This document shows, piece by piece, positions 10,913 through 26,446 of a DNA stretch of 33,236 bases; positions within the stretch are counted from its first letter, which is position 1; each line of letters begins with the position of its first letter. The stretch spans positions 1 through 33,236 of the IMG/VR virus record IMGVR_UViG_3300005613_004108, one strand, 5' to 3'. The translations under genes were made by a program, and so were the position numbers. The notes beneath the pieces were generated by a model, which had not been told where the DNA came from, did not search any database, and saw nothing but the letters and a program-made list of their open reading frames with translations. The DNA is from a virus.

Positions 10913-13900
10913 TATTGTTTAACTCCTATAACTGTAAGATATGAATTTAATAACTTAACTGATTCAGGAACTGTATTTAATTCATGTTTTTCTTCAACTA
11001 GATTATTTTCAATAAAGTTTCTTATATAATTATTCTTCAAATCAATACAGTCAGATTTTGTTGTCAGAAATTCAAATAAGTTACATGGAGCATCATGACC
11101 AATTAAACATGCTGTTTCCATTTCTCCGCATCTTTGTCCACCCTTATTTTTTCGTCCACCAAGTGGTTGAAGAGTTCTTCTGGCATAGGCTCCAATTCCT
11201 CTTGCAGAAAGTTTCTCTTCTGCAATATGGACCATTCTAAAGAAATATAGTGGTCCAACAGCAACTTTATTTACTAAATTCTCTTTTGATAATGGATCAT
11301 ATATTGTTTGCTTAAACTTAGCACCAGTATATTCCATTGCTTTTTCAACATCTTCTATTTTACATGACTCAAATGGAGCTTGAATTATTGTTAAACTTTG
11401 AATAAAATAAGAATCTATTTCATCTGGTAGTTGCTCTTCAAACTGTTTGTAATACCAACCATCAGATGTTTTATCAATTATACTTATATAATCTAGTAAG
11501 TATTTTTTTATTTCATCTTGACTTTTATTCTCATTTAACATTTGTAACATATTTTGTTTTAAAGCGTCAACTGACATAGATAAGTGCATTTCATATAATT
11601 GTCCAATATTCATTCTAGAAATAATACCGAGTGGATTTATACAAATATCAAGATGTCTGCCATCTTCAAGTTGCGGCATTTTTTCATGAGGAACAATTCT
11701 TGAAATTACTCCTTTATTACCATGCCGGTTTGCTATTTTATCACCAACTCTAATTTTTCTAAAGTGAACACCAAACATTTGAACATGAATCCCATTTATT
11801 CTTTCTCGTTTTTGTTTATACTTGCCAACAAATGAGAACTTATCTAAACTATGCTCTCTAATTATTTTCATTGCTTGATCAGTTGGTAATAAGTTTTTTA
11901 TAACTGTTTGTAGAACTTTTTCTTCAACTTGCTGATCTTGTAATCGTTTTTCAATCCATTCACTATATATAGGAATTTCCTCATTCCAGGTATTACCATA
12001 TAAATTAACTTCTGAAATAATAAAGTTTTTTCTAGCTACTAAAGTGATTGGCTCTATAAATGGTGAGTAGAGCTCATCTGAATTTAGTTTATTAATTATT
12101 GCATATGGTTCACCTGCTTTAATCGTTTGTAGTTCATCTGGTAAAGGTTTATAGTCATCACCCTTTTCAAGTGATACTAGTACTTTATCTGGAGTTAAGT
12201 TAAATGATAAGTCTTTATAATGGACAGATGTTAATGTATCTTCATTTGCTAAACGATCTGAAATAATAATACCATCTTCATAATTATTACCATAATAAAT
12301 CATTACTCCAGTTAAGAGATTTTTTCCTATATTAATTCTTCCATTATTACAAAAATTACTTTCTGCAAGAATATCACCAGCTTTAAATTTATCTCCCATC
12401 TTAACATAGATATTCATAAAGTCAAGATGTTCAACATAGATTTTTCTATAAGATATATCAAAAATATCTACTTCGTCGTCAACATACTGAGTAATAATAT
12501 ATTTTTTATCAATGTAAATAACTAACCCATCTTTCTTTGCTCGTTTTACAAATTGGGTATGATCAGTATACAAACCTTCGCAACCAGAACTTATCAATGG
12601 AGTATCAAAATCCTTTAACATAATTGCTTGTCTCATTTGTGATGACGCCATTTGTAGTCTAGTTTGATCGTCATGCTTTAAGAAAGGAGTCATAGATACT
12701 GGTGTTGAAATTGGTTGTTTATCACAAATTTCATTTGTGAATTTTAGGTTTTCATCCAGTTTAACATTTGGAACCAAATTTTGTAATACGCCACAGTTAT
12801 CACGGTCAGGAGTATCTACTGGGCAAATTCTTCCAAACATTGTTGGACATATATCTCGTAGATGTTTTGGAATATTTTCTCTTTTAAATCCTCCTGGTCC
12901 TAACAGACTAATTCTTGATAATTTTGTAAGTTCTTCGATTGGATTAATTGAAAAATCAAATTGAACAATATCAGACACATTACAATCTGAAAGAATTTGT
13001 GTAGAATTAATATTAAATTTTGGTTGACGAGCAGTTCTATTTGAGAAACATAGATCAAATATTATCTTTGATATTTTTCCCAATATCACATACTCAAAAC
13101 ATCGTACTCTTTTATTTGTAAAAAGAGTGTCGTCAATATCTTCGTATTTTAATATATCAATTAGTTCATCTATTACTGATTCTGTTTTTAAGAATTTGGC
13201 TGTGATAAGATCTACTTTACTAATTAAGTCTAATGCATATAATATATCTTCTCCTTTAGATTTCGCATTATATCTAGAATATGTCCTTCCGATTTCTAGA
13301 ATGAAATCATCTTGAGTATACCCTCTAGACGAATCGTAATATTCTTTTAAATCGGTTCTTAATATTTCATATAAATTTGGAGTTACTTCATCAATCTCAC
13401 CATCAAGATTAAACTTTTGAAACGCTTCATCTATTCCATAATATGCCATAAGTATTAATCCAAATGGAATTTTCTTTCCTAAGAAACTTATGTTAATACG
13501 AGGAACTTCTTTTTCTTTAAAAACCATGATAGTCGCTACATTAGTTCTCAACTTAATGTTTTCGCCCCTTGTTACAAGAGGAATATCAAAAAGTTGAAAT
13601 AAAGGAATTTTCTTTCTTCCATTAATATATATGTAGTTTTTATCAACTAACTTGGGAATGAAAAGACTTAGGTCAATATTAGCACTACCCTTTTGTAGTT
13701 TTATTGATAAAGTTTGTTTTAATGTTTTTGATAATTCTCCAGAAGAAAATTTTGAATCTTTAAGACTTACATCATTTATCGTAAAACCAATTTCTTCAAC
13801 TGGTTTAACAATATCTCGAACCATTGGTAAAATTTGTTCATAATCTTTTTCTCTTATTGTAAAGATATTATTATCTTCATTTTGAATTTTAAATGTGGGA

Positions 13901-13914
13901 TTAACTATGTTCAA
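10912..13914 (-). CDS. rpoB: RNA polymerase beta subunit, phage-encoded, bacterial type
   Basis: This is a compact beta subunit (1000 residues; bacterial ones are about 1150-1340). It starts at a TTG at 13914 with AAAGGAGG 9 bases upstream. Landmarks in order: fork and rifampicin-pocket region 318-342 (QFDFSINPIEELTKLSRISL), GRICPVDTPDRDNCG (361-375), SSQMRQAIML (424-433), NNYEDGIIISDRL (543-555), GDKIANRHGNKGVISR (724-739) with the catalytic-site lysines, NPLGIISRMNIGQ (760-772), and the C-terminal LQPLGGRKNKGGQRCGEMET clamp segment. It forms half of the active centre with beta'. It is not split in two as in the phiKZ/PBS1 type. Losses are in the lobes and lineage inserts. Alpha, omega and sigma genes are not in the window. 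Confidence 0.95.
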   Translation of the reverse strand: MNIVNPTFKIQNEDNNIFTIREKDYEQILPMVRDIVKPVEEIGFTINDVSLKDSKFSSGELSKTLKQTLSIKLQKGSANIDLSLFIPKLVDKNYIYINGRKKIPLFQLFDIPLVTRGENIKLRTNVATIMVFKEKEVPRINISFLGKKIPFGLILMAYYGIDEAFQKFNLDGEIDEVTPNLYEILRTDLKEYYDSSRGYTQDDFILEIGRTYSRYNAKSKGEDILYALDLISKVDLITAKFLKTESVIDELIDILKYEDIDDTLFTNKRVRCFEYVILGKISKIIFDLCFSNRTARQPKFNINSTQILSDCNVSDIVQFDFSINPIEELTKLSRISLLGPGGFKRENIPKHLRDICPTMFGRICPVDTPDRDNCGVLQNLVPNVKLDENLKFTNEICDKQPISTPVSMTPFLKHDDQTRLQMASSQMRQAIMLKDFDTPLISSGCEGLYTDHTQFVKRAKKDGLVIYIDKKYIITQYVDDEVDIFDISYRKIYVEHLDFMNIYVKMGDKFKAGDILAESNFCNNGRINIGKNLLTGVMIYYGNNYEDGIIISDRLANEDTLTSVHYKDLSFNLTPDKVLVSLEKGDDYKPLPDELQTIKAGEPYAIINKLNSDELYSPFIEPITLVARKNFIISEVNLYGNTWNEEIPIYSEWIEKRLQDQQVEEKVLQTVIKNLLPTDQAMKIIREHSLDKFSFVGKYKQKRERINGIHVQMFGVHFRKIRVGDKIANRHGNKGVISRIVPHEKMPQLEDGRHLDICINPLGIISRMNIGQLYEMHLSMSVDALKQNMLQMLNENKSQDEIKKYLLDYISIIDKTSDGWYYKQFEEQLPDEIDSYFIQSLTIIQAPFESCKIEDVEKAMEYTGAKFKQTIYDPLSKENLVNKVAVGPLYFFRMVHIAEEKLSARGIGAYARRTLQPLGGRKNKGGQRCGEMETACLIGHDAPCNLFEFLTTKSDCIDLKNNYIRNFIENNLVEEKHELNTVPESVKLLNSYLTVIGVKQ

Positions 13915-14107
13915 TGGTTTCGCCTCCTTTAAAATTAGAATTATATTTCTGTAAAGCTTTTAGTAGGTCGTCATCCTCAATATAATAAGGATCTTGATTT
14001 AATCGTAAAGCATTCATTATTAATTGAGTTAATCGAAGATCTGGACATTTTTCCCAGATCTCCTTAATTAACTCTAAAATTGGTGCTATTCTTTCTGGAT
14101 CTCTCAT
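13901..14107 (-). CDS. Small conserved-type protein between beta' and beta, 68 aa
   Basis: This helical 68-residue protein begins MRDPERIAPILELIKEIW and continues with PDLRLTQLIMNAL and a closing YYIEDDDLLKAL. I recall similar small MRDPxRI...W...PDLRLxQLI...EDD proteins in many bacteria and phages with no established function. It overlaps rpoC by ATGA and rpoB by 14 bases, so all three are translated in series. Its position between the two large subunits suggests a polymerase-associated part, but it does not look like omega (no MARxT or K/R-rich omega core). The PDLRL pattern is seen; the polymerase link is inferred from position only. Confidence 0.7.
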   Translation of the reverse strand: MRDPERIAPILELIKEIWEKCPDLRLTQLIMNALRLNQDPYYIEDDDLLKALQKYNSNFKGGETIEHS

Positions 14108-16809
14108 ACTATTTTTTCTCCCTTTAAAATCTTATCCATAACTCCAGAATATCTACCTTCATATAAAATACCCTGTAAAATTGCCCGTTTTGGATTTGAA
14201 AAAGCCATAGCAAGAATCCAGCTTTCTTGATTTGGAACACTCTGGACACTAAAATAAGATGGTTCTACTTTATCTCTATTTTCTAGAAGTCTCCATTTTT
14301 TATAATTTTTCCACATCAGTTGAGCAACAACACATTCAAAATGGACATGATGTATATCTTTATCATATACATCAAATAATGATTCAACTATATCTGTATA
14401 TGTTTTTCCTTTAAATTTATGTAATAGTTCTGCAACTGAGGCAAGATCTCCAATAATATCTTTTTGTTTCATCGCTTCGTTATTATCATCAGATCCTTGA
14501 ATTACAGCTGAACCAGAAGTATGAAATGTTCGTAAAACTAATTGAGTACCTCTTTCACCAAGGGTTTGAGCAGCTATAATACCTACAAAACGACTATTTA
14601 ATTTTTTATATAAATCCCCATAACATGTCTTACAAATCTTTGGTGATTTACATAAAATTGGACTTCTAATAAATATAGTTTTTCCAATAATGTCTTTATA
14701 GTTCTCTTTAGTAATTTTTTCTAATTGATTATTGACTTCTTGGTATCTATTTATAAGCATTTTTGCTTTTCTTTCATTTTTAACATGAACTTCTAAAAGA
14801 TCTTTTGTACCACAATCATCTAGATCTAAATCAATTTGTAAATTGGCACAAGTAAAGATTAGTTTTCTAGATAGATAACCGCTGGTACCAGTATTTAGTG
14901 CAACATCTAAAAGTCCTTTTCTACAACCATATGTTGAATAAAAGAACTCTTCTTGATTCAATCCTTCAAGTAATGAATTTTTAATTGGTAAAGGTAGAAT
15001 TTCCCCATCAAAATTTGATATAAAGCCTCTGGTTAAAACAAGCTGTTTAACTTGATCCCAACTACCTCGTGCTCCTGATGCAATCATGTGCGCGTAATAA
15101 AAATTATCTCTCATTGTTTCATTTACGGATTTATCAGAAACAGCTAATAATTGATCTCTAAGATTTTCACTTGTATAAAGCTTTTCTTTTAATTCTGCGG
15201 ATCCGTGCATTTTACAATCTTTAAGAGACATTGTACAACCAAATAAGGTTGCATATTTAAACCCAATTTTCTTTATGTCATCTAATACTTTTATGGTGAT
15301 TTCCTTATTATATTTGTCTTTTATATCATTTAAGATCTGGAGTAATCTATCCTTATTTACTTCTCCTTCAATGATTGGATAATCTTCTGGTAAATATCTG
15401 TTAAACTCTTCTTGACCTTTTGTAAGGGATTCATTTTGACTTTCTTCTTTAATCAATTGGTTTGAAAAGTTTGGTGACGTTAAATAGTAAATACCTAAAA
15501 CAACATCTTGACTTGGTGTCGTGGTTAACTCTTCATTTGCTGGACTGTTTAAATTAGATGAAATTAAAACTTTATTAATAATTTCTTCTCTTGCTTCATC
15601 TGTTACTGGAATATAAACTGCCATTTGATCCCCATCAAAATCAGCATTAAATGGAGGGCAAGCCAAAGGATGAATTTTTATCACCTGATCCCTTGTGACT
15701 TTTACTTTAAAACCTAGCATTCCAAGTTTATGTAAAGATGGTTGTCTATTTAATATACAGTATTTATCTTTAGTAACATATTTACATAATTTTAATAAAA
15801 CAAGTGATTGATTATCAATACATTCATCAACAAAATCAATGGCTTTATTAAGAAGTTTAAATTTACCAATTTCAATTATTCTTTTGGCAATAGGTAATTT
15901 AAATATTTCAAGAACCATTAAATATGGTAGCTTACATTCATCTAAAGCTAATGTTGGATCTGGTGTAATAACAGCTCTTCCAGAAAAATCAATTCGTTTC
16001 CCAAGAATATTTCCTCTTATCAATCCTTCTTTTTTAGACATTTTTTCAAGTATTCTAGTATACAGTTCGTTAACATCTTTTTGAAGTTGTTTAAAATAAG
16101 AATAGTATAGCGCTTTATCTCTTTGAATATTGATAATAGTATCTTTCATAATTTCTTTTTTAGTAAGTATTTGAACATAATACCTATTAATTTTATCCAT
16201 CAATTGTTTATTTTGTCCAGAACTTTTAGATGTTGGCCTCAATTCTGGGGGTAACACTATTATTTTATCTATTAATAAATTATCAATATTATCAAGTACA
16301 ATTTTCCATTCTGTAAGGCCGTCCTCAACTGCATCAGCAGCATTAGTTTCTACTAATACTTTTATTGCATCACTTCGTTCCCAAGTTTGAACTCCTTTTG
16401 GTATTTGATCTATATTAGTTTCAACAACAAACTCTTGATCACTAATATATAAAACGCTTTTATCATTTTTCATAAGATTATCTAGAGCTTTCTTTAAACC
16501 TTTTCCGCCAAGATCAACTAGTAAATCATAAAATAATGGATTTACAACTGGTATAGGTAGCGTTATTTTTGCAAATCGTTTTCGTCTTTCATCACTATTG
16601 ACAATATCTACTCCACATTCTTTACATTTACTACCTTCTTTTGAAACTCCATAATAAGTACCACATTGGCAGGTATAATTTCGTACTGGGCCGAATATCT
16701 GTTCAGAGAATAATCCATTAGGATGAAACTTTTTTTTACCAAATGTTTTTAGAGACGTCACTTCGTCTAATTCTTCACAAAAATTTTCATAATTAAGTAT
16801 TTTTGGCAT
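14104..16809 (-). CDS. rpoC: RNA polymerase beta' subunit, phage-encoded, bacterial type
   Basis: A single-chain compact beta' (901 residues; bacterial ones are about 1150-1400) with a GGAGAG site before the ATG. In order: N-terminal zinc knuckle C47/C49/C62/C65 followed by DERRKRFAKI; IRGNILGKRIDFSGRAVI (264-281); NRQPSLHKLGMLGF (354-367); the catalytic NADFDGD at 388-394 with all three Asp; the bridge-helix/trigger-loop region with FYSTYGCRKGLLDVALNTG...SGYLSRKL; the second zinc site (DCGT and CKSPKICKTCYG); and GIIAAQTLGERGTQL...RTFHTSG. The C-terminal jaw is much reduced. All chemistry-bearing modules are present, so it should be active with beta. It is preceded by the Ubl-conjugation cassette on the same strand with a 5-base gap. 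Confidence 0.96.
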   Translation of the reverse strand: MPKILNYENFCEELDEVTSLKTFGKKKFHPNGLFSEQIFGPVRNYTCQCGTYYGVSKEGSKCKECGVDIVNSDERRKRFAKITLPIPVVNPLFYDLLVDLGGKGLKKALDNLMKNDKSVLYISDQEFVVETNIDQIPKGVQTWERSDAIKVLVETNAADAVEDGLTEWKIVLDNIDNLLIDKIIVLPPELRPTSKSSGQNKQLMDKINRYYVQILTKKEIMKDTIINIQRDKALYYSYFKQLQKDVNELYTRILEKMSKKEGLIRGNILGKRIDFSGRAVITPDPTLALDECKLPYLMVLEIFKLPIAKRIIEIGKFKLLNKAIDFVDECIDNQSLVLLKLCKYVTKDKYCILNRQPSLHKLGMLGFKVKVTRDQVIKIHPLACPPFNADFDGDQMAVYIPVTDEAREEIINKVLISSNLNSPANEELTTTPSQDVVLGIYYLTSPNFSNQLIKEESQNESLTKGQEEFNRYLPEDYPIIEGEVNKDRLLQILNDIKDKYNKEITIKVLDDIKKIGFKYATLFGCTMSLKDCKMHGSAELKEKLYTSENLRDQLLAVSDKSVNETMRDNFYYAHMIASGARGSWDQVKQLVLTRGFISNFDGEILPLPIKNSLLEGLNQEEFFYSTYGCRKGLLDVALNTGTSGYLSRKLIFTCANLQIDLDLDDCGTKDLLEVHVKNERKAKMLINRYQEVNNQLEKITKENYKDIIGKTIFIRSPILCKSPKICKTCYGDLYKKLNSRFVGIIAAQTLGERGTQLVLRTFHTSGSAVIQGSDDNNEAMKQKDIIGDLASVAELLHKFKGKTYTDIVESLFDVYDKDIHHVHFECVVAQLMWKNYKKWRLLENRDKVEPSYFSVQSVPNQESWILAMAFSNPKRAILQGILYEGRYSGVMDKILKGEKIV

Positions 16810-17253: not shown

Positions 17254-17595
17254 TTATAACACCTCTTGTTCTTCATATTCTATCTCATCCCACGGAGTAA
17301 AATAACAATCATTTAAGTTAAAACAACATAACATAGTTTGTATGATAACTTTTATATTATCAGAAATCTTTTCTTCTCGTAATTTATGTGGAATACAGAA
17401 GTTCCCATTTTTTGGGTTTGCATTTGGATGTGGAACATTAATTATAATAAGATCAATATTATCGTTTACTGTCTTTATAATATAATCTTTAATATAAAAT
17501 TTTTTTGGTAATTTTGTAATTGTATATAACGTATTTTTAAAAACCAATTTGTTTGGGATGAAAAGTCCTCTTATTAAATGATCTCTTATTTCCAT
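17254..17595 (-). CDS. Short E2 (UBC-like) conjugating protein candidate
   Basis: This 113-residue protein contains HPN at 56-58 and GNFCI with Cys 67, preceded by a strand IDLIIINV (47-54) and followed by helical segments. In eukaryotic E2 enzymes the HPN motif is followed by the catalytic Cys in a GxIC[LI] context 8 residues after the Asn; here it is 9. The strand-HPN-loop-Cys arrangement therefore matches the E2 active site. The protein is shorter than a canonical E2 core (about 150), as are several prokaryotic E2-like proteins. Its ATG overlaps the stop of the E1-like gene (TAATG; GGAG upstream), giving a coupled E1-E2 pair. It would carry the Ubl as a thioester from Cys 67. The motif is seen; the fold is inferred. 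Confidence 0.6.
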   Translation of the reverse strand: MEIRDHLIRGLFIPNKLVFKNTLYTITKLPKKFYIKDYIIKTVNDNIDLIIINVPHPNANPKNGNFCIPHKLREEKISDNIKVIIQTMLCCFNLNDCYFTPWDEIEYEEQEVL

Positions 17596-18455
17596 TAAGC
17601 AGCTCCTGTTTCTGGAATGAGTTCAACAAAAACGTCAGATCCATCTTGAAAAACAGATATTACGAAATTATTAAATTCACATTGTAAATTTATAACAGAT
17701 GCTAAATTGATAATAAGGTCTTTGCTTGAGGTTAAAGATTTTTTTGGTATCATTCGTTCTGCAACTGGGAATACTCTGCTCCCAAGAAATACTTGTATAT
17801 CTTTTCTTTTATTCATATCCAAAATTGGAACAATCTTATCTGGTAAATTAATAAACTTCTCACTTTCAATAACATTATCATAAACAATATCATACATAGA
17901 TTTATCTATATGCTTGACATAATCTAACTCATATTTTTGAACGGCTTGATTATTGATCAACGATTTAATTGTATTGCTATGAACTAGCATTGAAACAGTT
18001 GATGCAGCATATCTTAGATCATCTTTTGTTAATTCAATCAGATATTTTCCAACTTGTGGAATTTTATAATTGACATTTTTTCGGCAGTCAACAATTAAAT
18101 ATCTAGATGATATGTAGAGTCTGGCGTCAATCTTATTTTGACGATCATATGTATAATCGCGGCAATCTAAAATTAAATCTGTTTCTGGGATTTTTGTTTC
18201 TCCCTCTATATATTTAGTTTGAATTCCTAAAATTTCTGTTTCATGATTTTTTTCACTAATTATATCTGCTAAAGCTTCAACTTTTGGTATACCTATATCA
18301 ATTTGTCTATAGATAGAGTTCTTTAAATTTCTTTTTTCAACTGTATCGTGGTCTACAATCACTAATTTCTCAATTCCCTCAAGTGTGGAGAGAGCATCAA
18401 CAACGAAACCTCCAAGGGTTCCTAATCCAATTACTACGATACTTTTATATATCAC
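17595..18455 (-). CDS. Second E1/ThiF/MoeB-like adenylating protein, divergent
   Basis: The protein has 286 residues and starts at a GTG at 18455 with AAAGGAG 9 bases upstream. The N-terminal Rossmann core is a ThiF-type adenylation domain: GLGTLGG (10-16), acidic VDHD (34-37), N43 in KRNLKNS, R50 in YRQ, and K58 in GIPKVEA, all at E1-like spacing. LILDCRD (95-100) matches the strand that carries the ATP-site Asp in E1 enzymes. The C-terminal half (about 130-286) is divergent, ending in a strand-rich DGSDVFVELIPETGAA. No Cys lies where E1 proteins form the thioester, so it may only adenylate, act as a regulatory E1 half, or hand over directly to the E2-like protein encoded next. Two E1-like genes in one cassette is unusual. 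Confidence 0.75.
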   Translation of the reverse strand: MIYKSIVVIGLGTLGGFVVDALSTLEGIEKLVIVDHDTVEKRNLKNSIYRQIDIGIPKVEALADIISEKNHETEILGIQTKYIEGETKIPETDLILDCRDYTYDRQNKIDARLYISSRYLIVDCRKNVNYKIPQVGKYLIELTKDDLRYAASTVSMLVHSNTIKSLINNQAVQKYELDYVKHIDKSMYDIVYDNVIESEKFINLPDKIVPILDMNKRKDIQVFLGSRVFPVAERMIPKKSLTSSKDLIINLASVINLQCEFNNFVISVFQDGSDVFVELIPETGAA

Positions 18456-18483
18456 GTTCTGTTTCTCCTTTCATATGAATATT

Positions 18484-18510
18484 GGTGAGGGGCTAAAATG
18501 CCCCTCAACC
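18484..18510 (-). terminator. Strong GC hairpin after the 183-aa gene
   Basis: GAGGGGC (18487-18493) pairs with GCCCCTC (18500-18506) around a 6-base loop, with GGT/ACC flanks extending it after a mismatch. It lies between the stop of the 183-residue gene and the E1-like start. There is no T-tract on the minus strand, so it may be an RNA-stability or processing hairpin, or a terminator for a non-host polymerase. Confidence 0.55.
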
Positions 18511-18515
18511 ATTTA

Positions 18516-19067
18516 TTACTCCGCCTTCTTTTTTAGACCTTCTTCAAGAAGTTCTGCTTCAAATTTTCCTGTTGGTACTGGTCTAAAATGTGATTTATAT
18601 TTATATAATTTATTTGCTATCTTCACTGGATAACTAAGAGGAAGAGCAAAAGAATATTCTATTATTTCATGTGTCTTTAAACGACTAGAAACTTCGATAG
18701 GCGGGTCTATCGTTTTTAGTTCTTCTTTAACAATTGTATCGAAGTATTCTGCATCTTTAGCATTTTTTACTTTCATTGCTCTACGAATAAATTGATCATT
18801 TCTTGATGAACTATTTATTTTCCCGAAATTTTTTCTTCGTACTAAAGCTTTCATTGCTCTTCCAAAAGCTTTGTTTTTTCCATCTGAAATGCGAAATATA
18901 TCTAGAAGAGAACAAATAGAAACCCCTCGTGCTTCAATTCTATTTTTAGTAGTATTAACAAGAACGCATGTTGTATATGCATTATTTATCAAAGGGGTTT
19001 TTTCATAATAAAATGATATCTTATCAACACCATTTTTAGCAAGGACTTCCTGAACCGATTCAAGCAT
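18516..19067 (-). CDS. Unknown protein inside the Ubl cassette, 183 aa
   Basis: The start at 19067 (MLESVQEVLAK) is preferred because AAAGGATC lies 6 bases upstream; an ATG at 19082 has none and abuts a hairpin. The centre carries RIEARGVSICSLLDIF and FGRAMKALVRRKN, a pattern (ARGxSxCSxxDxF...GRAxxAL) I recall from phage and plasmid hypotheticals without known function. It is basic with an alternating strand start and a helical end (LEEGLKKKAE). It lies between Ubl and the second E1-like gene, bracketed by hairpins, so it may be expressed at a different level from them. It could be a cassette-specific adaptor or substrate; the sequence does not decide. Confidence 0.65.
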   Translation of the reverse strand: MLESVQEVLAKNGVDKISFYYEKTPLINNAYTTCVLVNTTKNRIEARGVSICSLLDIFRISDGKNKAFGRAMKALVRRKNFGKINSSSRNDQFIRRAMKVKNAKDAEYFDTIVKEELKTIDPPIEVSSRLKTHEIIEYSFALPLSYPVKIANKLYKYKSHFRPVPTGKFEAELLEEGLKKKAE

Positions 19068-19082
19068 TTTAGATCCTTTCAT

Positions 19083-19120
19083 TAATATATTAGGACCCCA
19101 GAAGGGGTCCCGATATATTA
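19083..19120 (-). terminator. Long composite hairpin downstream of the Ubl gene
   Basis: An inner GGACCCC AGAA GGGGTCC stem (19093-19110) is extended by TAATATAT/ATATATTA (19083-19090 and 19113-19120) beyond a two-base internal mismatch, 15 base pairs in all. It starts 5 bases after the Ubl stop codon. There is no T-tract on the minus strand, but the AT arm may serve. It also sits just before the 183-residue gene, so it could reduce read-through or set its expression. Confidence 0.65.
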
Positions 19121-19125
19121 AAACG

Positions 19126-19584
19126 TTAACAACCTTTCTTTCCTGCTGGTTTTAGGAACTCAAGATTGTCACCCTCTTTTAGAATATAGTCCCCAGGTAC
19201 TTCTTTTCCATTAACCAATCCGGTTGATAGACGATCAACATTAAGAACTTCTCTGATGAAATCACCCACTTCTTTAACACTCTTTCCAGTTACGGGAAAG
19301 TTGCCTGATGAAGCACCACATGAAACATGAATTGTGGTTGTGGTTCTTGAACCAAATGGAGCAGATGGTTTTGTCAAAGTACTTTGACCAGTAAATTCTA
19401 CTCCGGTTACACCCTTGCTTGGCGCAATCGTGGCACCACCGGAATATGTTTCCAATATTGAATTAATAACAACATCTTTTGTCTTTTTGCTAACTCCGAC
19501 AATTCCAAGTTCATCAATACACATCCGCTTTAAGTCCTTGGATGTTTTGGCTTCTAGTTCTTCACGTGTAAAACTTCTTCCCAT
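19126..19584 (-). CDS. Ubiquitin-like modifier with N-terminal SAP-like domain
   Basis: The protein has 152 residues with AAAGGAG before the ATG. Residues 6-47 (TREELEAKTSKDLKRMC..., GIVGVSKKTKDVVINSILE) look like a SAP/HeH-type helix-turn-helix that binds nucleic acid. A Gly/Ser/Thr/Pro linker (about 49-80) leads to a C-terminal beta-grasp domain of the MoaD/ThiS/ubiquitin type. It reads TTIHVSC strand, PVTG strand, KSVKEVGDFIREVL helix, STGLVNGKEV strands, and DYILKEGDNLEFLKP as the closing L-x-x-GD-x-x-x-F signature. It ends AGKKGC. Removal of the terminal Cys would expose a Gly, as JAMM proteases do for other prokaryotic Ubls. PRTRC-C proteins, as I recall, end in TKG. It is the likely modifier for the E1, E2-like and JAMM proteins around it. 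Confidence 0.75.
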   Translation of the reverse strand: MGRSFTREELEAKTSKDLKRMCIDELGIVGVSKKTKDVVINSILETYSGGATIAPSKGVTGVEFTGQSTLTKPSAPFGSRTTTTIHVSCGASSGNFPVTGKSVKEVGDFIREVLNVDRLSTGLVNGKEVPGDYILKEGDNLEFLKPAGKKGC

Positions 19585-19589
19585 GTTTT

Positions 19590-20276
19590 TTAATTCTCCT
19601 TTACAATTCTTGTTTTCGCATCTGTTGTCATACTCAAAATATCAAAGTATATTTCAGAGCGATCGTACTTTCCTTTTATAACAGCGTTATAAAAGGCCCA
19701 ACACATAATTGTTGCAACCCCTAAGTTTGTAAAATACAATTGAGGGTCAGAGTGTGATAATTCGTCGCAAGACATTTCATCAGGTAACTTATCTTCGGGA
19801 TTGGAAATTTCAGGATGATATGCACATAGGTCAGGAGTTAAATCTCTCCCTTCTCTTCTGACATAAATTTGAACATTACCATCTGTAAATTCATTCCCAC
19901 CAGAAATGAGGGTAACATCTTGTAGTTGCTTACAGTAATTAGATACTATCATTCTGGTTTTATGATTATCTACGCATAGAAAAACAATATTGCCTTCTTT
20001 AATAACTTCAGAAACATTATCTGGGTTTATGAAGGCGTCATATACATCTAAACCAAGCTGACTAAATTTTAACTCCAGTTCTGTTGCTTTAATATCAGCT
20101 TTATTACCTATTCTATTAAATTCTTGTCTCTCATAATTTTTCTGCTCATATTCGTCTCCATCTACAAGGAGAATTTCAGCAGTTAGATCATTTGAATAAT
20201 TTATAAATCTACATAATCTTTCAATGAGTATAGAACCTACACCACCAAGTCCAATGATAGTTATATTTAAATCCAT
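19590..20276 (-). CDS. E1-like ThiF-family activating enzyme (PRTRC-ThiF type)
   Basis: The protein has 228 residues from the ATG at 20276, with AAGGAG 9 bases upstream inside the end of the JAMM gene; an earlier ATG at 20297 lacks a site. All E1 landmarks are present: GLGGVGS (9-15), acidic VDGD (38-41), NYERQ (47-51, the N...RQ motif), K59 in GNKADIKA, and FLCVDN with D103. A Cys at 170 in the MSCDE context fits the thioester Cys. The order closely follows ThiF-like proteins of the PRTRC cassette. It would adenylate the C-terminal Gly of the Ubl encoded 5 bases downstream and take it as a thioester. The Ubl-JAMM-E1 adjacency supports a dedicated pathway, not sulfur carrier chemistry for thiamine or molybdopterin. 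Confidence 0.85.
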   Translation of the reverse strand: MDLNITIIGLGGVGSILIERLCRFINYSNDLTAEILLVDGDEYEQKNYERQEFNRIGNKADIKATELELKFSQLGLDVYDAFINPDNVSEVIKEGNIVFLCVDNHKTRMIVSNYCKQLQDVTLISGGNEFTDGNVQIYVRREGRDLTPDLCAYHPEISNPEDKLPDEMSCDELSHSDPQLYFTNLGVATIMCWAFYNAVIKGKYDRSEIYFDILSMTTDAKTRIVKEN

Positions 20277-20280
20277 TACA

Positions 20281-21741
20281 TTAGACTCCTTTTCCAAAAA
20301 CCTTTTTAAACATACCCATTAGCGTTTTATCTTTTTCTGGAATAGGAACAGAAGAAGAATTAGGCTCTGGAATTTTTTCCACTATAGTGTTAGATTCCTG
20401 TAGTAAGTGCTCAGTTTCCTTATCTATTATTCCTTTATAATTTTTCTTATATTCTTCATAGGGAATTTCTACAGATTTCTCTAATAACTCATAGCAAAAT
20501 GGGCAAACTTCATCACCCTCTGAAACCATAAATGTATTTGTGCAAACAGAACATCTGCGAAAACTGGAATGTGTAACTGATCCATCTTCGTTTCTGTCAA
20601 GCATATGTTCAATTTCAGAAGCTGGTGTGAAGTTATCAACCATCATATCTTCATCAAATTCATCTTCTATTTCATCTGTAATTTGCTCAATAACCCAATC
20701 TATTTTAGAATCTCTGAAAAAGCAGTGCTCACATGGGTTAAAGTCATCATCTATTTCTTCAGTTTTTGGGAATATAACATTAGGTTTTTTATGACTATCA
20801 ATAACTTTAACTGTAGAATGTTTATTTGTTTTTCCTATATGGTGAACGCCTGGAGTTTGTTTAGTCTTCCACCCTCTAGCAGAAGCCCAAGCACGAGCAT
20901 CAAAATGCTCTCCCCAACCAGAAGCTCCATACATTCCATAACCACCAGGATATCCTGCATATGTATAAGTTCCTTTCTCTACCATCAGCAACCATTTTTT
21001 ATTAAAAATTCTTTGATGGTCTGTTACATTAACATCATATCGTTTATCGTATTTTCTATAAGAATATGTATATTTTGCTGACTCTACTTTATCTTCTACT
21101 AACTTTCCATTTACTACTTTCCAAACTTTTCTGACTGGTTTATTCTCTACTTGATCAATTTCAGACATTAGAATGAGGTTATCTAGATAGTCCGTTGGAT
21201 CCACCATAACACGATAACCATTTGCGACAATTGATGCTGATATACTTACAAATTCTTCATCAGCATCACCAATTGTAATATGAAGTCCATCAAAATGCTC
21301 TTCGTCAGCATCATCTGTTCCAGAATGAAAAGCAGACATAGAAGCATGGCAATGAAAAGTTCCTATCATGGACATGCCATTAATGGTCATACCTCTATTA
21401 TAGTCAATTGCAGCAGATGTAACTTTTTGACGCGGAGGAACCATTTTGAATTTCTTTGTGGTTTCATCATAAAATATTAAAACAATGGATTCTGACCTAT
21501 GTTCTTTATAAACTGCTTTGAAAAATTCGATGATTTTTGCAACAGTAGGGCCAGGAATTTTAGGAATATGCATTGTAGCAGAAGCAGCAACACTTTCCAA
21601 AACGGAGATGTTTTTTACAGGAGCTAAACTTTCCATAACTCCAAGTTTCTTTTTTAAAAAGATACCTTCCTTACCGACGATATAAAATATATCATCTTCT
21701 GGCATTGGATTTTGCCCATCGTTAACATGAATTTTAAACAT
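20281..21741 (-). CDS. JAB/JAMM metallopeptidase with C-terminal zinc tail (PRTRC-A-like)
   Basis: The protein has 486 residues; AAAGGAG lies 8 bases before the ATG, which overlaps the E2-like stop by 8 bases. The JAMM zinc site is clear: FHCH with H130 and H132, then S140 and D143 in HSGTDDADE. This is the HxH...SxxD motif, followed by DGLHITIGD. A Glu in the preceding helix or strand (80, 85 or 93) would complete it. A Gly/Tyr/Trp-rich stretch (about 256-290) follows. Then come a CxxC at 337/340, a very acidic region (351-369), and a four-Cys knuckle at C397/C400/C413/C416, which may be a zinc ribbon or treble clef. The expected job is trimming the Ubl C-terminus or removing it from targets. 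The zinc tail may recruit an E2 or substrate. Confidence 0.88.
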   Translation of the reverse strand: MFKIHVNDGQNPMPEDDIFYIVGKEGIFLKKKLGVMESLAPVKNISVLESVAASATMHIPKIPGPTVAKIIEFFKAVYKEHRSESIVLIFYDETTKKFKMVPPRQKVTSAAIDYNRGMTINGMSMIGTFHCHASMSAFHSGTDDADEEHFDGLHITIGDADEEFVSISASIVANGYRVMVDPTDYLDNLILMSEIDQVENKPVRKVWKVVNGKLVEDKVESAKYTYSYRKYDKRYDVNVTDHQRIFNKKWLLMVEKGTYTYAGYPGGYGMYGASGWGEHFDARAWASARGWKTKQTPGVHHIGKTNKHSTVKVIDSHKKPNVIFPKTEEIDDDFNPCEHCFFRDSKIDWVIEQITDEIEDEFDEDMMVDNFTPASEIEHMLDRNEDGSVTHSSFRRCSVCTNTFMVSEGDEVCPFCYELLEKSVEIPYEEYKKNYKGIIDKETEHLLQESNTIVEKIPEPNSSSVPIPEKDKTLMGMFKKVFGKGV

Positions 21742-24304
21742 TAATTAAACTCCTTTCGTCTTTGAGTAGGTACATATATGAATTTCTAGATTTATTAATA
21801 AGCCCATGAAAATTTGGCCATGCTAAAGTATAACCTGCTTCTGTTTGCATTTTTGGACTCAATCTTGGGTTTGGAATACAATCAAGTATTGTGCATTTTC
21901 TTATATAACTATCAAGAACATAATAATCAGCATAACCACTAAAACTATCAAGATTTACAATCTTTAAAGATGATCTAGAACTAGTTTTCATTACTAACCA
22001 TCCGGAATTACTTGTATAATCTTCTATTCCTTTAATTATATCACCAGCTTGGTACTTAATATTAGTTGCTATAGAAGCATGTTGTAGCTTACTCCATTGT
22101 TTAGATTTAAGACCTACTTTCTTAAATTTTTCCACCATATCACTAAACCATAAAGTACAACAATTTGAACATAATACTAAAGGTTCCCCTCCAGTATCTG
22201 TTATAAAACCAACGATAATATTTGTATCTTTTTTTGGGAAATATGGTATTCCTGCTTCTCTAGCAATAATTTTGGTTCCAGCTGAAATTCTACCATAACT
22301 ATTTTCAATTTTTCTAATTTTTCCCGTCTGAATAGTTGCGTTTTTTCCGCTGATATATTCTTCTTCGCTTAATTTACCATCTTTATCAGCTAGTATAAAA
22401 GAAACACTATTATTATCACTTTGCATTTTAAATGCTTGAATCATTTTTACTGTTAGTATATCCATTGGATTCTTCCAATTTGCAACAACTACTTTATCTC
22501 CAATACTAAAAGTTGTATCTAAATTAAAACTCTCAACATGTAATGATTCTTTTGTTAGAATATATTTTTTCATATCACTTATACTAGGTGGATTCATCAG
22601 TAGGCGATCAGCTTCATAAACTATACCTGAGGGAGTACCCCAAACTGCATTTTTAATGGAAGTTCTAGATTCCGTTTTAGCTATTAATAATTTTCTACCA
22701 ACAGTAACTAATGGGGGTAGCTCTTTAATTTTTTCTTCTTTGTATAAACATTCCATGGTTCTTCCTGAACTGATATTTAGTAAGTATGCGTCCCCATAAA
22801 ATTTTGGATGTTGATTTATAAACTTTAATGCTAAATTTCCATAGTTATCTGGTTCAACTCCTTCAAGAGAAACTATCGAACCATTATGGATAGGTCCTGC
22901 TAATATTCTTTTTAAATAAACCAATTTATCCCCAAGTTTTATATTCATTCTACCATATTTAAAATTTTTGAGAGTCATAACTTCTCCCTCTGTATTTTCA
23001 AGAATATAGAACTCGCTACCCAGTTTAGCTTCATGCATTCCATCCCGAGATTTTCTAATATGATTAACCTTTTTATATATATTATCTCCACGATAATTTT
23101 TAATAACTAAAATATCACCCGCTTTTATATCAACACCATTTTTTAGAGTACCTTCATCTGAAAATCTTAACTTCTTAACTTGTTCATAAAGATACCTTTT
23201 AAACTTTCTAGTTAGCTTAAATTTAATAAGGCGACCTTTGTCAGTTTCTACTCGGATATATCGTATAGCATCACTATCAAAGAAACCAATGAATGAGTCA
23301 ATAAATGCTGTAACTTTTCCCTTTTTTATCATAAAAGGATCACCTACGTGAACAAAGAAATCTTTTTTTAGAAACATACCTGAGGCTACATCATAAAACA
23401 ATTCTACTCTTTTTCTAGATCTTTTAGTTGGTTTTTCAGACATCCCCGTATCATGAGGTCTAACAAAAACACTTGCTAATGTTTTATAGTATAGATTCCC
23501 TTTGGATTCAACTCGGTAATGCTTTTTCATTTCTTCTATAGCAATACCCAAGTTATAACCAATATCAATCCAATCTACATTGTATATAAACATTGGATTT
23601 ATTTTAGATAAGGCTTGCCAACCCAAATATGTATCAACTCCAGCAATGTGCTTATAAGCATGATAGTTATATGTATAGTCTGTATTAAATTCAGCAGACC
23701 AGAAAACCATGATTGCTTTTTCAACTGCTGAACTCAATGTTGGAGTTTTTCCAGAAATAGCAGAACCAAAACAAATATATTGTGTATCCGAAATATTTAA
23801 CATAGGATTTTTAAAAAGATAATCTCCAAGACCATTCAGTCTAGCAGCTCTCAAATAAGTTTGACCTGCTGCTATTTCCTTATATTCATTAACATATAAA
23901 AGAAAAATTACATATGGTAGTGCTAATGTGAGTGTATGTGGTCCATAACCTGATGAATAATCTTTCTCTTTGTACCCATATTCCTCTAGCTTTCCACTTT
24001 CTTTTAATTTATCAACTTCATGTTTTAATGACATACTAACCTTAATTGTCCGAAAAGCTGGAGGTTCTTCAATTACAAGTATACTTCCTTTAGTTCCTTT
24101 TTCGATATATCTACAATTTGGGGGAACGATAGTATTATTAAGTTGTAAATTTGAACTTATTCTTTTAAGATAATCATTAGTTGTTAATATTTTTTTATTC
24201 ACTTTTGGTATCGAATCATCTTTGACTGTGTTTGAATATTCTGATCTATATAAATGTGCATAGCAATCATTTATTCTAATTTCATTCATCATCACTGTAG
24301 TCAT
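21734..24304 (-). CDS. PRTRC-B/prokaryotic E2-like N-domain fused to long beta-rich region
   Basis: The protein has 856 residues from the ATG at 24304 (GGTGA 7 bases upstream; an ATG two codons earlier is too close). The N-terminal about 260 residues resemble the E2-related protein B of PRTRC cassettes. They show ILVIEEPP (75-82), YGPHTLTLALPYVIFLLYV (120-138), FKNPMLNISDTQYICFGS with N170 and C178 spaced 8 apart as in the E2 HPN-to-Cys loop, then a conserved-looking VFWSAEFNT. The remaining about 580 residues are strand-rich, with repeated GDKVV/GDILV/GDKLV entries suggesting several SH3/KOW-like barrels, plus a CSNCC at about 715. I infer an E2-like carrier with a large substrate-binding extension. 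PRTRC-B itself may be catalytically silent, so activity is uncertain. Confidence 0.6.
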   Translation of the reverse strand: MTTVMMNEIRINDCYAHLYRSEYSNTVKDDSIPKVNKKILTTNDYLKRISSNLQLNNTIVPPNCRYIEKGTKGSILVIEEPPAFRTIKVSMSLKHEVDKLKESGKLEEYGYKEKDYSSGYGPHTLTLALPYVIFLLYVNEYKEIAAGQTYLRAARLNGLGDYLFKNPMLNISDTQYICFGSAISGKTPTLSSAVEKAIMVFWSAEFNTDYTYNYHAYKHIAGVDTYLGWQALSKINPMFIYNVDWIDIGYNLGIAIEEMKKHYRVESKGNLYYKTLASVFVRPHDTGMSEKPTKRSRKRVELFYDVASGMFLKKDFFVHVGDPFMIKKGKVTAFIDSFIGFFDSDAIRYIRVETDKGRLIKFKLTRKFKRYLYEQVKKLRFSDEGTLKNGVDIKAGDILVIKNYRGDNIYKKVNHIRKSRDGMHEAKLGSEFYILENTEGEVMTLKNFKYGRMNIKLGDKLVYLKRILAGPIHNGSIVSLEGVEPDNYGNLALKFINQHPKFYGDAYLLNISSGRTMECLYKEEKIKELPPLVTVGRKLLIAKTESRTSIKNAVWGTPSGIVYEADRLLMNPPSISDMKKYILTKESLHVESFNLDTTFSIGDKVVVANWKNPMDILTVKMIQAFKMQSDNNSVSFILADKDGKLSEEEYISGKNATIQTGKIRKIENSYGRISAGTKIIAREAGIPYFPKKDTNIIVGFITDTGGEPLVLCSNCCTLWFSDMVEKFKKVGLKSKQWSKLQHASIATNIKYQAGDIIKGIEDYTSNSGWLVMKTSSRSSLKIVNLDSFSGYADYYVLDSYIRKCTILDCIPNPRLSPKMQTEAGYTLAWPNFHGLINKSRNSYMYLLKDERSLINV

Positions 24305-24306
24305 TC

Positions 24307-24684
24307 TCATTCACCTCGTAAATATTTGTATTGTTTAGCATATTCTGTTAAAATTTTCTCTGGTCTATGATCATTTATTTCCCAAACTCTTTGCTTCTTC
24401 ATAATAACAGTTTCGCTAGATTTATTTAATTCACTCCTACGTATCACAAATAAAACTAGAAGATAGATATCTTCACTTTCTCGTTCTAAACATAAAAACG
24501 CAATTTCAGATTGATTCCTTCCTGGTACTTCTAACGATAAAAATATATTTGGACCTTTTGGTAATAAGAGAGCATTTTCAATATTGCTTTTTTCTTGTTC
24601 AAATATTTCACCACATAATTCTCGAATTTTCTCTACATTGCTATCTGTTTTTAATTCCTCAAGCAATTCTTTTAAAATCCCCAC
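24307..24684 (-). CDS. Unknown protein, 125 aa, GTG start
   Basis: It starts at a GTG (24684) with AAAAGGAG 8 bases upstream. The N-terminal half is helical and acidic (LKELLEELKTDSNVEKIREL). The centre has two strands (NIFLSLEVPG, SEIAFLCLERESEDIYLLVLFVIRR) and the end is helical. The stop overlaps the start region of the E2-like gene, so it may be co-translated with the cassette. No family is recognised. The alternating strand/helix order could be a small adaptor fold, but no motif supports a function. Confidence 0.6.
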   Translation of the reverse strand: MGILKELLEELKTDSNVEKIRELCGEIFEQEKSNIENALLLPKGPNIFLSLEVPGRNQSEIAFLCLERESEDIYLLVLFVIRRSELNKSSETVIMKKQRVWEINDHRPEKILTEYAKQYKYLRGE

Positions 24685-24687
24685 TTT

Positions 24688-25020
24688 TTAAACTCCTTTT
24701 GGTTTTTTCTTTACATAATACCTTTTATTAGGAGTATCCATCCATTCAACTCTATCAAATGGAACTGATCTCCACCCTTTTTTATCTAAATCATATACGT
24801 GCATAATTTTATTTTTTTGTATAAGACGTAAGATGTTCTCAATATTAACACCCTTTGGATGATCTTGTTTAGGAACTTTTTTGAAGTCTAAGGTACATCT
24901 CATAATTCTATCAATACCATTTTTCTTTTCAAATTTAATTATTACTTCTTTTTCGTCATATACTTTTTTCCAGAATTGTACTGCGCTTAATATAATATCA
25001 GTGTCTAATTGATCTGGCAT
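24688..25020 (-). CDS. WYL_2/Sm-like SH3 barrel phage protein
   Basis: The protein has 110 residues; GGAGG lies 9 bases before the ATG. EVIIKFEKKNGIDRIMRCTL, then FKKVPKQDHP, and HVYDLDKKGWRSVPFDRVEW form the typical pattern of the small SH3-like/WYL_2 (DUF2693) proteins common in T4-type and other large phages. It runs from V.F...G..R.M.CTL to V.D...KGWRSF..D.I. Those proteins are thought to bind nucleic acid or a small ligand but their role is not known. A basic tail (KRYYVKKKPKGV) fits nucleic-acid binding. It lies between the radical SAM gene and the conjugation cassette. Confidence 0.65.
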   Translation of the reverse strand: MPDQLDTDIILSAVQFWKKVYDEKEVIIKFEKKNGIDRIMRCTLDFKKVPKQDHPKGVNIENILRLIQKNKIMHVYDLDKKGWRSVPFDRVEWMDTPNKRYYVKKKPKGV

Positions 25021-26064
25021 TTATTTACCCTCCCGTTTGTCTGAGTGTACTAGGTCGTCCACTTCTTTATTTGTCTCATCAATATATTTACTCATCATTA
25101 AGCATGAGTGGTTACATAACTTACAATAGTGTGTCTTATCTGAGTTTATAGTATTATATAAGGTATGTGGAAGTTGATAAGCTGAATTAAATAAGGTAGT
25201 TACATCATAAGTTGGAGTTGATACGCCTCTAATTCTTAAACACAACCTTATTGAACCATCAGCATCAACTGTTATATTATGGATACCATCTTCTAATTTA
25301 CAATCAAAATTAGAAGGCAAGGTATTAAACATTTGTGGTAATAGCAAGTCCTTCATATGTATAAGCAATTTATTATCGTTTAAAAATTCTTGAAACATTA
25401 TTGCTAGGTCAAATGATGGTTTAACAAGAGATGCTTCATCTCTGACATTTGAGAAATCATAAAACCTATTTTTTGCAATATCAACAAATGTTATATCACT
25501 ATAGATTTCTTCTTCGCTTAATTCTCTAACAAGATCATACAAGAGATGTTGATTATGATTCATTACTGTAATTTCAGCTACTACATCTTTTACTAAACCA
25601 GATGACTGCATCTCCTTTAATCTCTTTAATCCCTCAATACTTTTTTTGATTCTATCTTCATTAACTCCAATTTCGTTAAATATAGGATCAACCGAACTGG
25701 TAAATCCTTCCACGTGATCAACTTCATTAAACAACTTTTTAATTAGAGGTTGAATCTCTGGTGTGTTATTACTAATTATTGTATAATATATCTCGTTATC
25801 ATTACAATAATTAATAATTTCTGATAAACCTTTTCGTAGAAGTGGTTCGCCACCATAAAATATATGGAACATATTAGGATTATGAATTTTCATTTTCCTG
25901 AGTGCTTCAATAACTACATCTGTTGGCATTTCGTTTCTTATATAATATCCTATATTAGGATAAAGATGTGGCATTTTTTCATAATCTCTCACAATTGCGC
26001 AATAGTCACAGTGTAGATTACATAGTCTTGTTAATAACCAGTTTACTATTCTTATTTTACTCAT
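25021..26064 (-). CDS. Radical SAM protein with SPASM/twitch-like C-terminus
   Basis: The protein has 347 residues from the ATG at 26064, with GAAGGAT 7 bases upstream; an ATG at 26082 lies inside the preceding gene. The [4Fe-4S] motif is C15-N-L-H-C19-D-Y-C22 (CxxxCxxC). The GGE motif appears as YGGEPLL, and a SAM-binding strand VVAEITVMNHNQ follows. The C-terminal domain has further Cys: DCKLEDG, RLCLRIRG following DADGSIRL, and the cluster HYCKLCNHSC. That is the layout of SPASM/twitch auxiliary-cluster enzymes which modify peptides or proteins. It is too long and has the wrong C-terminus for QueE. The substrate is unknown; the NSSS-tagged protein encoded directly upstream (gap of 1 base) is a candidate partner by position. 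Confidence 0.8.
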   Translation of the reverse strand: MSKIRIVNWLLTRLCNLHCDYCAIVRDYEKMPHLYPNIGYYIRNEMPTDVVIEALRKMKIHNPNMFHIFYGGEPLLRKGLSEIINYCNDNEIYYTIISNNTPEIQPLIKKLFNEVDHVEGFTSSVDPIFNEIGVNEDRIKKSIEGLKRLKEMQSSGLVKDVVAEITVMNHNQHLLYDLVRELSEEEIYSDITFVDIAKNRFYDFSNVRDEASLVKPSFDLAIMFQEFLNDNKLLIHMKDLLLPQMFNTLPSNFDCKLEDGIHNITVDADGSIRLCLRIRGVSTPTYDVTTLFNSAYQLPHTLYNTINSDKTHYCKLCNHSCLMMSKYIDETNKEVDDLVHSDKREGK

Positions 26065-26065
26065 A

Positions 26066-26446
26066 TTACGATCCTTCTTCATGTATTATTTTTCCACCAT
26101 GCTTTCTAACAAGATCAAGAAATTTTTCTCTTCGATCCATCCAGTTTCGATTTATTTCAGCATAAATAGCAAATTTATTATTATCTAAAATTTTAGAAGT
26201 TTTTTCAAAAGAATCTTTAGACATATTCCAAAATGTATGTGGGACTCCTCTTGCAACTGACACCCAATCACAAGATTCTGCTTGAGCGTATGAAATGAGT
26301 CCTCTTTTATTATTAAAAAATCTAAAGGACTCACCCCATACAAATCGAAATTCCTTCTCTATATCTTTTCTTAATAATTTCTGATCAATTTCAATTATAA
26401 AAGAAGTTGATGAACTATTAGTTACAAAATCGCCTTTTATTTTCAT
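26066..26446 (-). CDS. NSSS-tag protein, 126 aa (family copy 1)
   Basis: It begins MKIKGDFVTNSSSTSFII, the N-terminal signature shared by five proteins in this window. AGGAG precedes the ATG. The body is basic and aromatic (FRFVWGESFRFFNNKRG, FAIYAEINRNWMDRREKF) and differs from the other copies. The protein ends with EEGS, and the radical SAM start follows after one base, so the two are coupled. I know the FV[ST]NSSSSSF N-terminus from many bacterial and phage hypothetical proteins, with no function that I can cite. Conservation of a short N-terminus with unrelated bodies points to a tag that directs or processes the protein. Confidence 0.7.
   Translation of the reverse strand: MKIKGDFVTNSSSTSFIIEIDQKLLRKDIEKEFRFVWGESFRFFNNKRGLISYAQAESCDWVSVARGVPHTFWNMSKDSFEKTSKILDNNKFAIYAEINRNWMDRREKFLDLVRKHGGKIIHEEGS

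Follow-up and report, generated by a model that had tools for sequence, protein, structure and literature searches.

A predicted ubiquitin-like conjugation cassette beside RNA polymerase genes in large uncultured bacteriophages

Here, we describe a gene cassette that appears to equip large uncultured bacteriophages with a ubiquitin-like kit of their own: a tag, a protease and a pair each of activating and conjugating enzymes. The cassette was analysed in a 33,236-base fragment of an IMG/VR virus record (IMGVR_UViG_3300005613_004108), referred to below in its full length as the window, where all of its genes lie on the minus strand. A preliminary description of this DNA had recognized ubiquitin-type parts in six of seven consecutive genes, and evidence from families, folds and conservation agrees; the seventh gene, for a 188-residue protein, encodes no recognisable part. 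We refer to the six products as E2D and E2s (E2-like), E1a and E1b (E1-like), JAMM (the protease) and Ubl (the ubiquitin-like tag). The predicted set is complete and its catalytic residues are invariant, in keeping with the earlier proposal of a dedicated phage cassette for activation, conjugation and de-conjugation of a tag. We put at about 0.8 the probability that it encodes a reversible ubiquitin-like conjugation system, one that likely tags proteins.

A scan with E1a returned 19 viral contigs, all with identical gene order and with polymerase genes downstream. Profile scans covered viral contigs and one genome per species and, once near-copies were removed, gave 85 distinct loci. RNA polymerase beta′ is encoded in 60 of these; one (L032) was excluded as the second polymerase of a phage already represented by L024, leaving 59 cassette loci. 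E1a, JAMM, Ubl and E1b adjoin the genes for RNA polymerase beta′ and beta in every one of the 59, and E2D and E2s each do so in 57; the gene for the 188-residue protein was found in only 16 loci. A neighbourhood survey of related phages had been set beforehand as a test, and linkage in it proved universal (59/59). Compared with the window, E1a has a median identity of 61% and Ubl of 52%; JAMM (40%) and E1b (39%) are lower, and E2D and E2s both stand at 31%. The lowest values span 22–41% across the proteins (E1a 41%, Ubl 32%). That catalytic residues remain invariant despite this divergence is strong evidence, at the level of sequence, that JAMM, E1a, E2D and E2s are working enzymes.

E1a matches ThiF (Pfam, E 1.2e-18) and PRTRC_ThiF (NCBIfam, E 1.1e-9), and its profile aligns with that of the PRTRC plasmid ThiF over 210 columns (E 2e-8). 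Residues R57, Q58, D110 and C177 are kept in 59/59 loci, and the sequence features of a canonical E1 (GxGxxG, arginine finger, aspartate and a candidate catalytic cysteine) are present in all of them. The preliminary description had named the right residues under other numbers: N47, R50, Q51 and C170 become N54, R57, Q58 and C177 when translation begins at the TTG at 20297. Likewise, the active cysteine of E2D was correctly picked out, with C178 becoming C180 from the upstream ATG at 24310. By itself, the E2D of the window matches Prok-E2_D at E 5e-4 (Pfam), and 16/16 E2D orthologues match this family, the best at 1.2e-6. In an hhalign comparison (E 0.001), C180 is aligned on the active cysteine of PRTRC_B in the motif N..IC.G, and it is kept in 55/55 aligned loci. 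No conserved histidine was seen downstream of this cysteine, and the aligned region holds a conserved aspartate, D211. E2D also carries about 600 extra residues, which by eye have the look of barrel repeats. JAMM matches PRTRC_A (NCBIfam, E 5e-11); the proposed catalytic residues H130, H132, S140 and D143 are kept, together with E84, in 58/58 loci, making up the motif E, HxH, x7, S, xx, D.

As had been suggested, the tag joins a SAP-like part to a beta-grasp part, with a Rho_N/SAP-like domain at residues 5–52 and the beta-grasp at residues ~80–150. Rho_N is matched in 16 of 17 Ubl orthologues, TGS in 13 and ThiS in 10, and Ubl matches a MoaD profile at E 5e-5. In an AlphaFold model with a predicted local distance difference test score (pLDDT) of 73, the N-terminus matches Rho (Z 8.0) and the C-terminus matches ISG15, MoaD and ubiquitin (Z 4.6–5). 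A profile search of the PDB gave a lone match, to a DUN1 chain, which we judged to be due to chance. The Ubl of the window ends in ..PAGKKG and then one cysteine. Its Lys-Gly end (K150-G151) is kept in 59/59 loci, and the G-x-K-G either closes the protein or precedes a short variable stretch (C, R, YK, DRKGC and others). Tandem tags also occur: L132 encodes two Rho_N-Ubl units with the junction ..KPAGRKG/ADET.., and L144 encodes three Ubls, each ending in GRKG or GTKG. An extra Rho_N-like match was seen in a 127-residue open reading frame (ORF) about 4.5 kb upstream of Ubl (G009:C1:93686-93832 and G010:C1:13826-13972).

The remaining pair is E1b and E2s. E1b matches ThiF (Pfam, E 1.8e-16) and, in PDB profile searches, MoeB, MccB and ThiF; a match to BubCD (E 2.5e-4) is a generic PDB one. 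The ATP-site glycines, D35, K58 and D97 are kept. Across the 59 loci, however, E1b has no conserved cysteine outside the ATP-site DCR motif, and its arginine finger is not conserved (R50 in 22/59). Hence the view of E1b as a second E1-like protein stands for its ThiF fold and ATP site, but describing it as another full E1 would be too simple. Similarity to E1s ends near residue 120, and the protein closes with a C-terminal region of about 90 residues whose conserved tail, ETG[AG]A, is kept almost as strongly as the ATP site (T283, G284 and A286 in 52–54 of 59 loci). E2s had been described as a short E2-like protein with an HPN...C motif, and its confident AlphaFold model (pLDDT 95.7) supports this: all 50 structural matches listed are UBC-fold E2s (Z 4.1–4.7, 83–92 aligned residues), pointing to a UBC fold around HPN..C with modest structural scores (Z <5). 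Foldseek searches of E2s against PDB and BFVD gave no match at E ≤0.001, the top PDB matches still being E2s. In a PDB profile search, a designed repeat protein, judged a chance match, ranked above UBC E2-21 kDa. H56 and N58 are kept in 57/57 aligned loci and C67 in 55/55.

The preliminary description also had the cassette running into beta′ and beta. The linkage is constant, as described above, but most carriers have two polymerases and the cassette stands by only one. In eight of nine large contigs examined (185–312 kb), two RNA polymerase beta genes were found. The beta by the cassette has ~1,000–1,050 residues, and the other, elsewhere on the contig, ~1,360–1,390. In the phage of L024 (223-kb contig), the second beta (~1,365 residues) and beta′ lie side by side, away from the cassette (L032:7576-14853); a second, larger beta is also seen in seven other large contigs. 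Because there are two betas and only one adjoins the cassette, the cassette appears to be tied to one particular polymerase. These contigs represent jumbo phages that have two polymerases and a terminase of the T4 type. Each of the nine contigs has a single JAMM match and a single Ubl locus. None of the nine contains an integrase of PF00589, which is compatible with calling these phages lytic.

In a tree of E1a, the polymerase-linked loci fall in one weakly supported group (84/88) of 64 rows, which also holds two rows from the Candidate Phyla Radiation (CPR) and two viral contigs on which no polymerase was observed. This is compatible with a single origin of the polymerase-linked cassettes, without proving it. 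Two loci with a phage-type cassette and polymerase, L147 and L156, come from contigs binned into archaeal metagenome-assembled genomes (MAGs) as Thermoplasmatales and Woesearchaeota. These are probably phage contigs misplaced by a binning error.

The prediction that PRTRC-type cassettes are Ubl systems dates from 2006, the plasmid PRTRC cassette being type 6d of Iyer et al. 2006 (PMC1779556). Its canonical order on plasmids, pMOL28 for example, is ParB-E-C-F-B-A-ThiF. The phage cassette shares the contiguous order B(E2)-A(JAB)-ThiF, the homology of E1 and JAMM, the E2 active-site motif N..IC.G and a Ubl that ends in AGxKG plus a short extension; plasmid PRTRC C proteins end in ..AGAKG plus 3–5 residues. 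Ubl and PRTRC_C match weakly as profiles (E 0.007), with tails alike, but Ubl has a fused Rho_N domain. Unlike its plasmid counterpart, the phage Ubl has this Rho_N/SAP domain and sits downstream, the phage E2 is extended to 858 residues, E1b and the UBC-type E2s are additional, and the set is linked to a polymerase. Curated NCBIfam cut-offs are missed (PRTRC_A, 42.5 against 101.8 bits; PRTRC_ThiF, 38.0 against 144.75 bits). The genes adjoining the cassette, compared with pMOL28, gave no match to ParB or PRTRC models, and no E or F gene was found there. Thus, the likeness to PRTRC proposed earlier is confirmed as gene order and kinship but does not extend to membership. By these predictions, the cassette represents a PRTRC-type Ubl system in a new form that is specific to phages.

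Related sets are found in cultured phages. JAMM, a ThiF-type E1 and a Prok-E2_D-like E2 are shared by Salmonella phage Arash, Vibrio phages D69, D148 and D181 and Bacillus phage KLEB27-3, and Arash and D69 also have small Ubl ORFs ending in TGTKG; in contrast to the uncultured phages, no E1b, E2s or adjoining polymerase was seen in the stretches examined. The records read do not describe a Ubl system, although that of KLEB27-3 has a PRTRC_A note and uses ThiF names. The probable Ubl of Arash is a 66-residue ORF (L002:107-307) with the end TGTKG, and GenBank annotates gp251c in another, overlapping frame. In D69, a hypothetical protein (L003:6310-7101) consists of three tandem Ubl-like repeats ending in TGTKG and adjoins the E2-, JAMM- and ThiF-like set, in which the ThiF gene is apparently split over two frames. 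In searches of a phage isolate collection, E2D (limit E 0.1) and Ubl (limit E 1) found no match, and E1b found only partial matches to the ThiF core. Processing after the Lys-Gly would explain the tandem tags, the variable ends of the phage tag, the extensions of PRTRC C proteins and the D69 repeats alike, and JAMM would be the simplest candidate for this step.

A four-gene core, E2D-JAMM-E1a-Ubl, also occurs in MAGs of CPR, NC10, Lentisphaerae and other groups, plus a few viral contigs. The gene set and the Ubl end xxKG are the same, whereas E1b, E2s and RNA polymerase are absent and the Ubl mostly lacks Rho_N. On the Falkowbacteria contig L154, PolA and RuvC genes were read by eye near the core; lying among such ordinary chromosomal genes, it indicates that a chromosomal form of the core exists. 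The logic of E1, E2 and JAB is likewise that of CBASS Cap2/Cap3, Bil and Bub. Cap2 of CBASS is a fused E1-E2 that acts on a CD-NTase, whereas E1 and E2 of the phage cassette are separate genes. PADLOC matched no CD-NTase, and its CBASS E1-E2 models match E1b in the ATP core only. The lambdoid TAPI/TAPK pair also combines a phage Ubl with a JAMM protease, but lacks E1 and E2 and sits among tail assembly genes (PMC1779556). Finally, JAMM and ThiF pairs were seen in Bacillota plasmids of Sporosarcina and Alkalihalophilus (L026, L027), with similar JAMM matches in others, e.g. those of Lysinibacillus and Metabacillus.

Ubl systems known from bacteria are mostly regarded as plasmid cargo or as defence against phages. 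In the present case, phages themselves seem to keep such a system as an invariant core operon beside a polymerase, with more parts than the related bacterial cassettes have. In the parts of the open-access literature available to us, no phage PRTRC-type system is described. Nor did we find in that literature a cassette that combines a tag fused to Rho_N with an additional E1/E2 pair and linkage to a polymerase, or a demonstrated function for PRTRC-type systems. Jumbo-phage reviews and the huge-phage paper make no mention of such systems. The PRTRC-like sets of cultured Salmonella, Vibrio and Bacillus phages make function testable by genetics, and the tandem tags offer a direct test of processing by JAMM.

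How might the cassette work? Ubl would be synthesized either as a tandem precursor or as a single unit, which may have a short C-terminal extension, and JAMM would expose its terminal ..G-x-K-G. E1a would then adenylate the glycine, take it up as a thioester on C177 and hand it to C180 of E2D, as the conserved active sites suggest; the long C-terminal part of E2D may choose the acceptor protein. JAMM could also remove the tag. E1b and E2s would constitute a second relay: E1b would activate a C-terminus and transfer it directly to C67 of E2s, the modifier being either the same Ubl or another. Through its Rho_N/SAP-like domain, the tag would equip the protein it marks with a nucleic-acid-binding or docking module. 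Given this Rho_N-type domain and the constant linkage to one polymerase, the phage transcription machinery comes first among the candidates, and we tentatively place a component of it ahead of host or virion proteins as the likeliest substrate. Going by linkage, beta and beta′ are possible targets. A more elaborate version strikes us as improbable: a full viral pathway whose tag binds nucleic acids through Rho_N/SAP and whose two E1-E2 relays run in parallel would control one of the two polymerases, the second relay conjugating a modifier at the end of its own E1.

Several points weigh against a conjugation system acting on transcription. The confidence of the Ubl model is moderate, with weak matches to beta-grasp folds (Z ~5); the matches of E2s are uniform but weak (Foldseek E 0.23 at best, Z <5); the downstream histidine of PRTRC-type E2s is absent from E2D, which has an aspartate instead; and operon linkage to a polymerase can reflect shared expression timing. 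The E1 and Ubl proteins might rather form a sulfur carrier of the ThiS or MoaD kind for base, tRNA or cofactor modification, with the E2- and JAMM-like proteins as accessories. E1a and E1b do match ThiF and MoeB, Ubl does match ThiS and MoaD, and the window has deazaguanine-type FolE2 and QueD genes; yet two E2s with an invariant cysteine, an intact JAMM and tandem tag precursors make this very unlikely, the Rho_N-bearing tag also argues against it, and the window proteins searched gave no match to a rhodanese or sulfurtransferase. Conjugation could also be directed at the host, tagging host RNA polymerase or defence proteins, or could shield phage proteins, in takeover or counter-defence. Anti-phage defence is a known role of Ubl systems in bacteria (PMC10097602), the ATP core of E1b resembles the CBASS E1-E2 models, and the nearest radical SAM gene is viperin-like. 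Counter-defence genes are usually patchy, however, whereas the cassette is a single-copy core set in fixed position in 59/59 loci, and no gene matches a whole defence system; we consider this a minor possibility. A slim chance remains for a tag that is packaged or serves in virion assembly, with tail proteins or an injected polymerase as examples of carriers. The E1-like gp246c and E2-like gp248c of Arash are labelled as structural proteins in the record, lambdoid TAPI and TAPK act in tail assembly (PMC1779556), and the large contigs have two RNA polymerases, one of which is a virion polymerase in some jumbo phages (PMC7598289), but the cassette is surrounded by genes for replication and transcription, not by tail genes.

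Within the favoured reading of reversible conjugation, three roles can be envisaged for E1b: serving E2s directly as an E1, pairing with E1a as a partner subunit, or carrying a modifier of its own. A partnership with E1a, as in the heterodimeric E1s of eukaryotes, with the C-terminal region docking E2s, is a reasonable if tentative idea. It fits a protein with ATP-site glycines, D35, K58 and D97 that is without a thioester cysteine or conserved arginine finger, whose E1-like match stops near residue 120 and whose gene overlaps the E2s gene. Against this, E1b retains ATP-site residues that are often lost from pseudo-E1 subunits, and its ETG[AG]A tail resembles an activated C-terminus. That tail, with its conserved T283, G284 and A286 and its similarity to the MoaD end ..PPVTGG, raises the question of whether the C-terminal region is a fused second Ubl, trimmed at ETG[AG]A and conjugated via E2s. 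This seems doubtful: hhalign gave E 0.61 against MoaD and 0.059 against the operon Ubl, no better than shuffled controls, and a deeper set again showed no profile similarity to either.

The seven ORFs are present as first described, with starts and stops that overlap or are closely packed (Table 1). Overlaps of up to 17 bases join E2D to JAMM, JAMM to E1a and E1b to E2s, as in a translationally coupled operon. The order of transcription is radical SAM, WYL_2 protein, 125-residue protein, E2D, JAMM, E1a and Ubl, then the 188-residue protein, E1b, E2s, two small proteins, beta′, a 68-residue protein and beta.

Table 1. Positions of the cassette genes and their neighbours in the window.
Feature	Position	Strand	Evidence
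E2D, Prok-E2_D (PRTRC_B-like) E2, 858 aa	21734..24310	-	Pfam, profile alignment, C180 conservation
JAMM isopeptidase, PRTRC_A-like, with C-terminal zinc-ribbon-like CxxC motifs	20281..21741	-	PRTRC_A match, motif conservation
E1a, ThiF-fold, PRTRC_ThiF-like, candidate thioester C177	19590..20297	-	ThiF/PRTRC_ThiF matches, conservation
Ubl modifier, 152 aa, Rho_N/SAP-like + beta-grasp	19126..19584	-	Rho_N, ThiS/TGS, MoaD, fold matches, KG end
188-aa accessory protein without recognised family	18516..19082	-	Distribution (16 loci)
E1b, second ThiF-fold protein	17595..18455	-	ThiF match; MoeB, MccB, ThiF in PDB; tail conservation
E2s, minimal UBC-fold E2, 113 aa, HPN-x8-C (H56, P57, N58, C67)	17254..17595	-	AlphaFold, structural matches, motif
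RNA polymerase beta′	14104..16809	-	NADFDGD motif, tblastn to RNA polymerase beta′, linkage in 59 loci
RNA polymerase beta	10912..13914	-	PHROG RNA polymerase beta 5e-42, linkage in 59 loci
Conserved 125-aa protein, overlaps E2D start	24307..24684	-	Linked in 48 loci
WYL_2 (SH3-like barrel) protein, linked to cassette	24688..25020	-	Pfam 9e-7
Radical SAM protein, nearest to viperin/pVip models	25021..26082	-	Pfam 1e-12, PADLOC pVip 4.8e-13

PHROGs gave no useful names for the cassette proteins. Other genes of the window encode a terminase large subunit, SbcC, SbcD, a helicase, QueD and FolE2, and the terminase and other genes place the window in a tailed phage. The terminase is distantly related (~30%) to those of Flavobacterium phage immuto and uncultured huge phages. 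FolE2 (GCHY-1, 8e-62) at 9749-10636 and QueD (2e-30) at 32722-33150 are parts of a preQ0/deazaguanine pathway. The radical SAM protein has a Cys-rich C-terminus, is linked to the cassette in 48 loci and, despite its pVip match, falls far under the NCBIfam viperin cut-off. The 188-residue protein matched no family in Pfam, PHROG or NCBIfam searches, and has conserved ARGVSICS and GRAxKA motifs.

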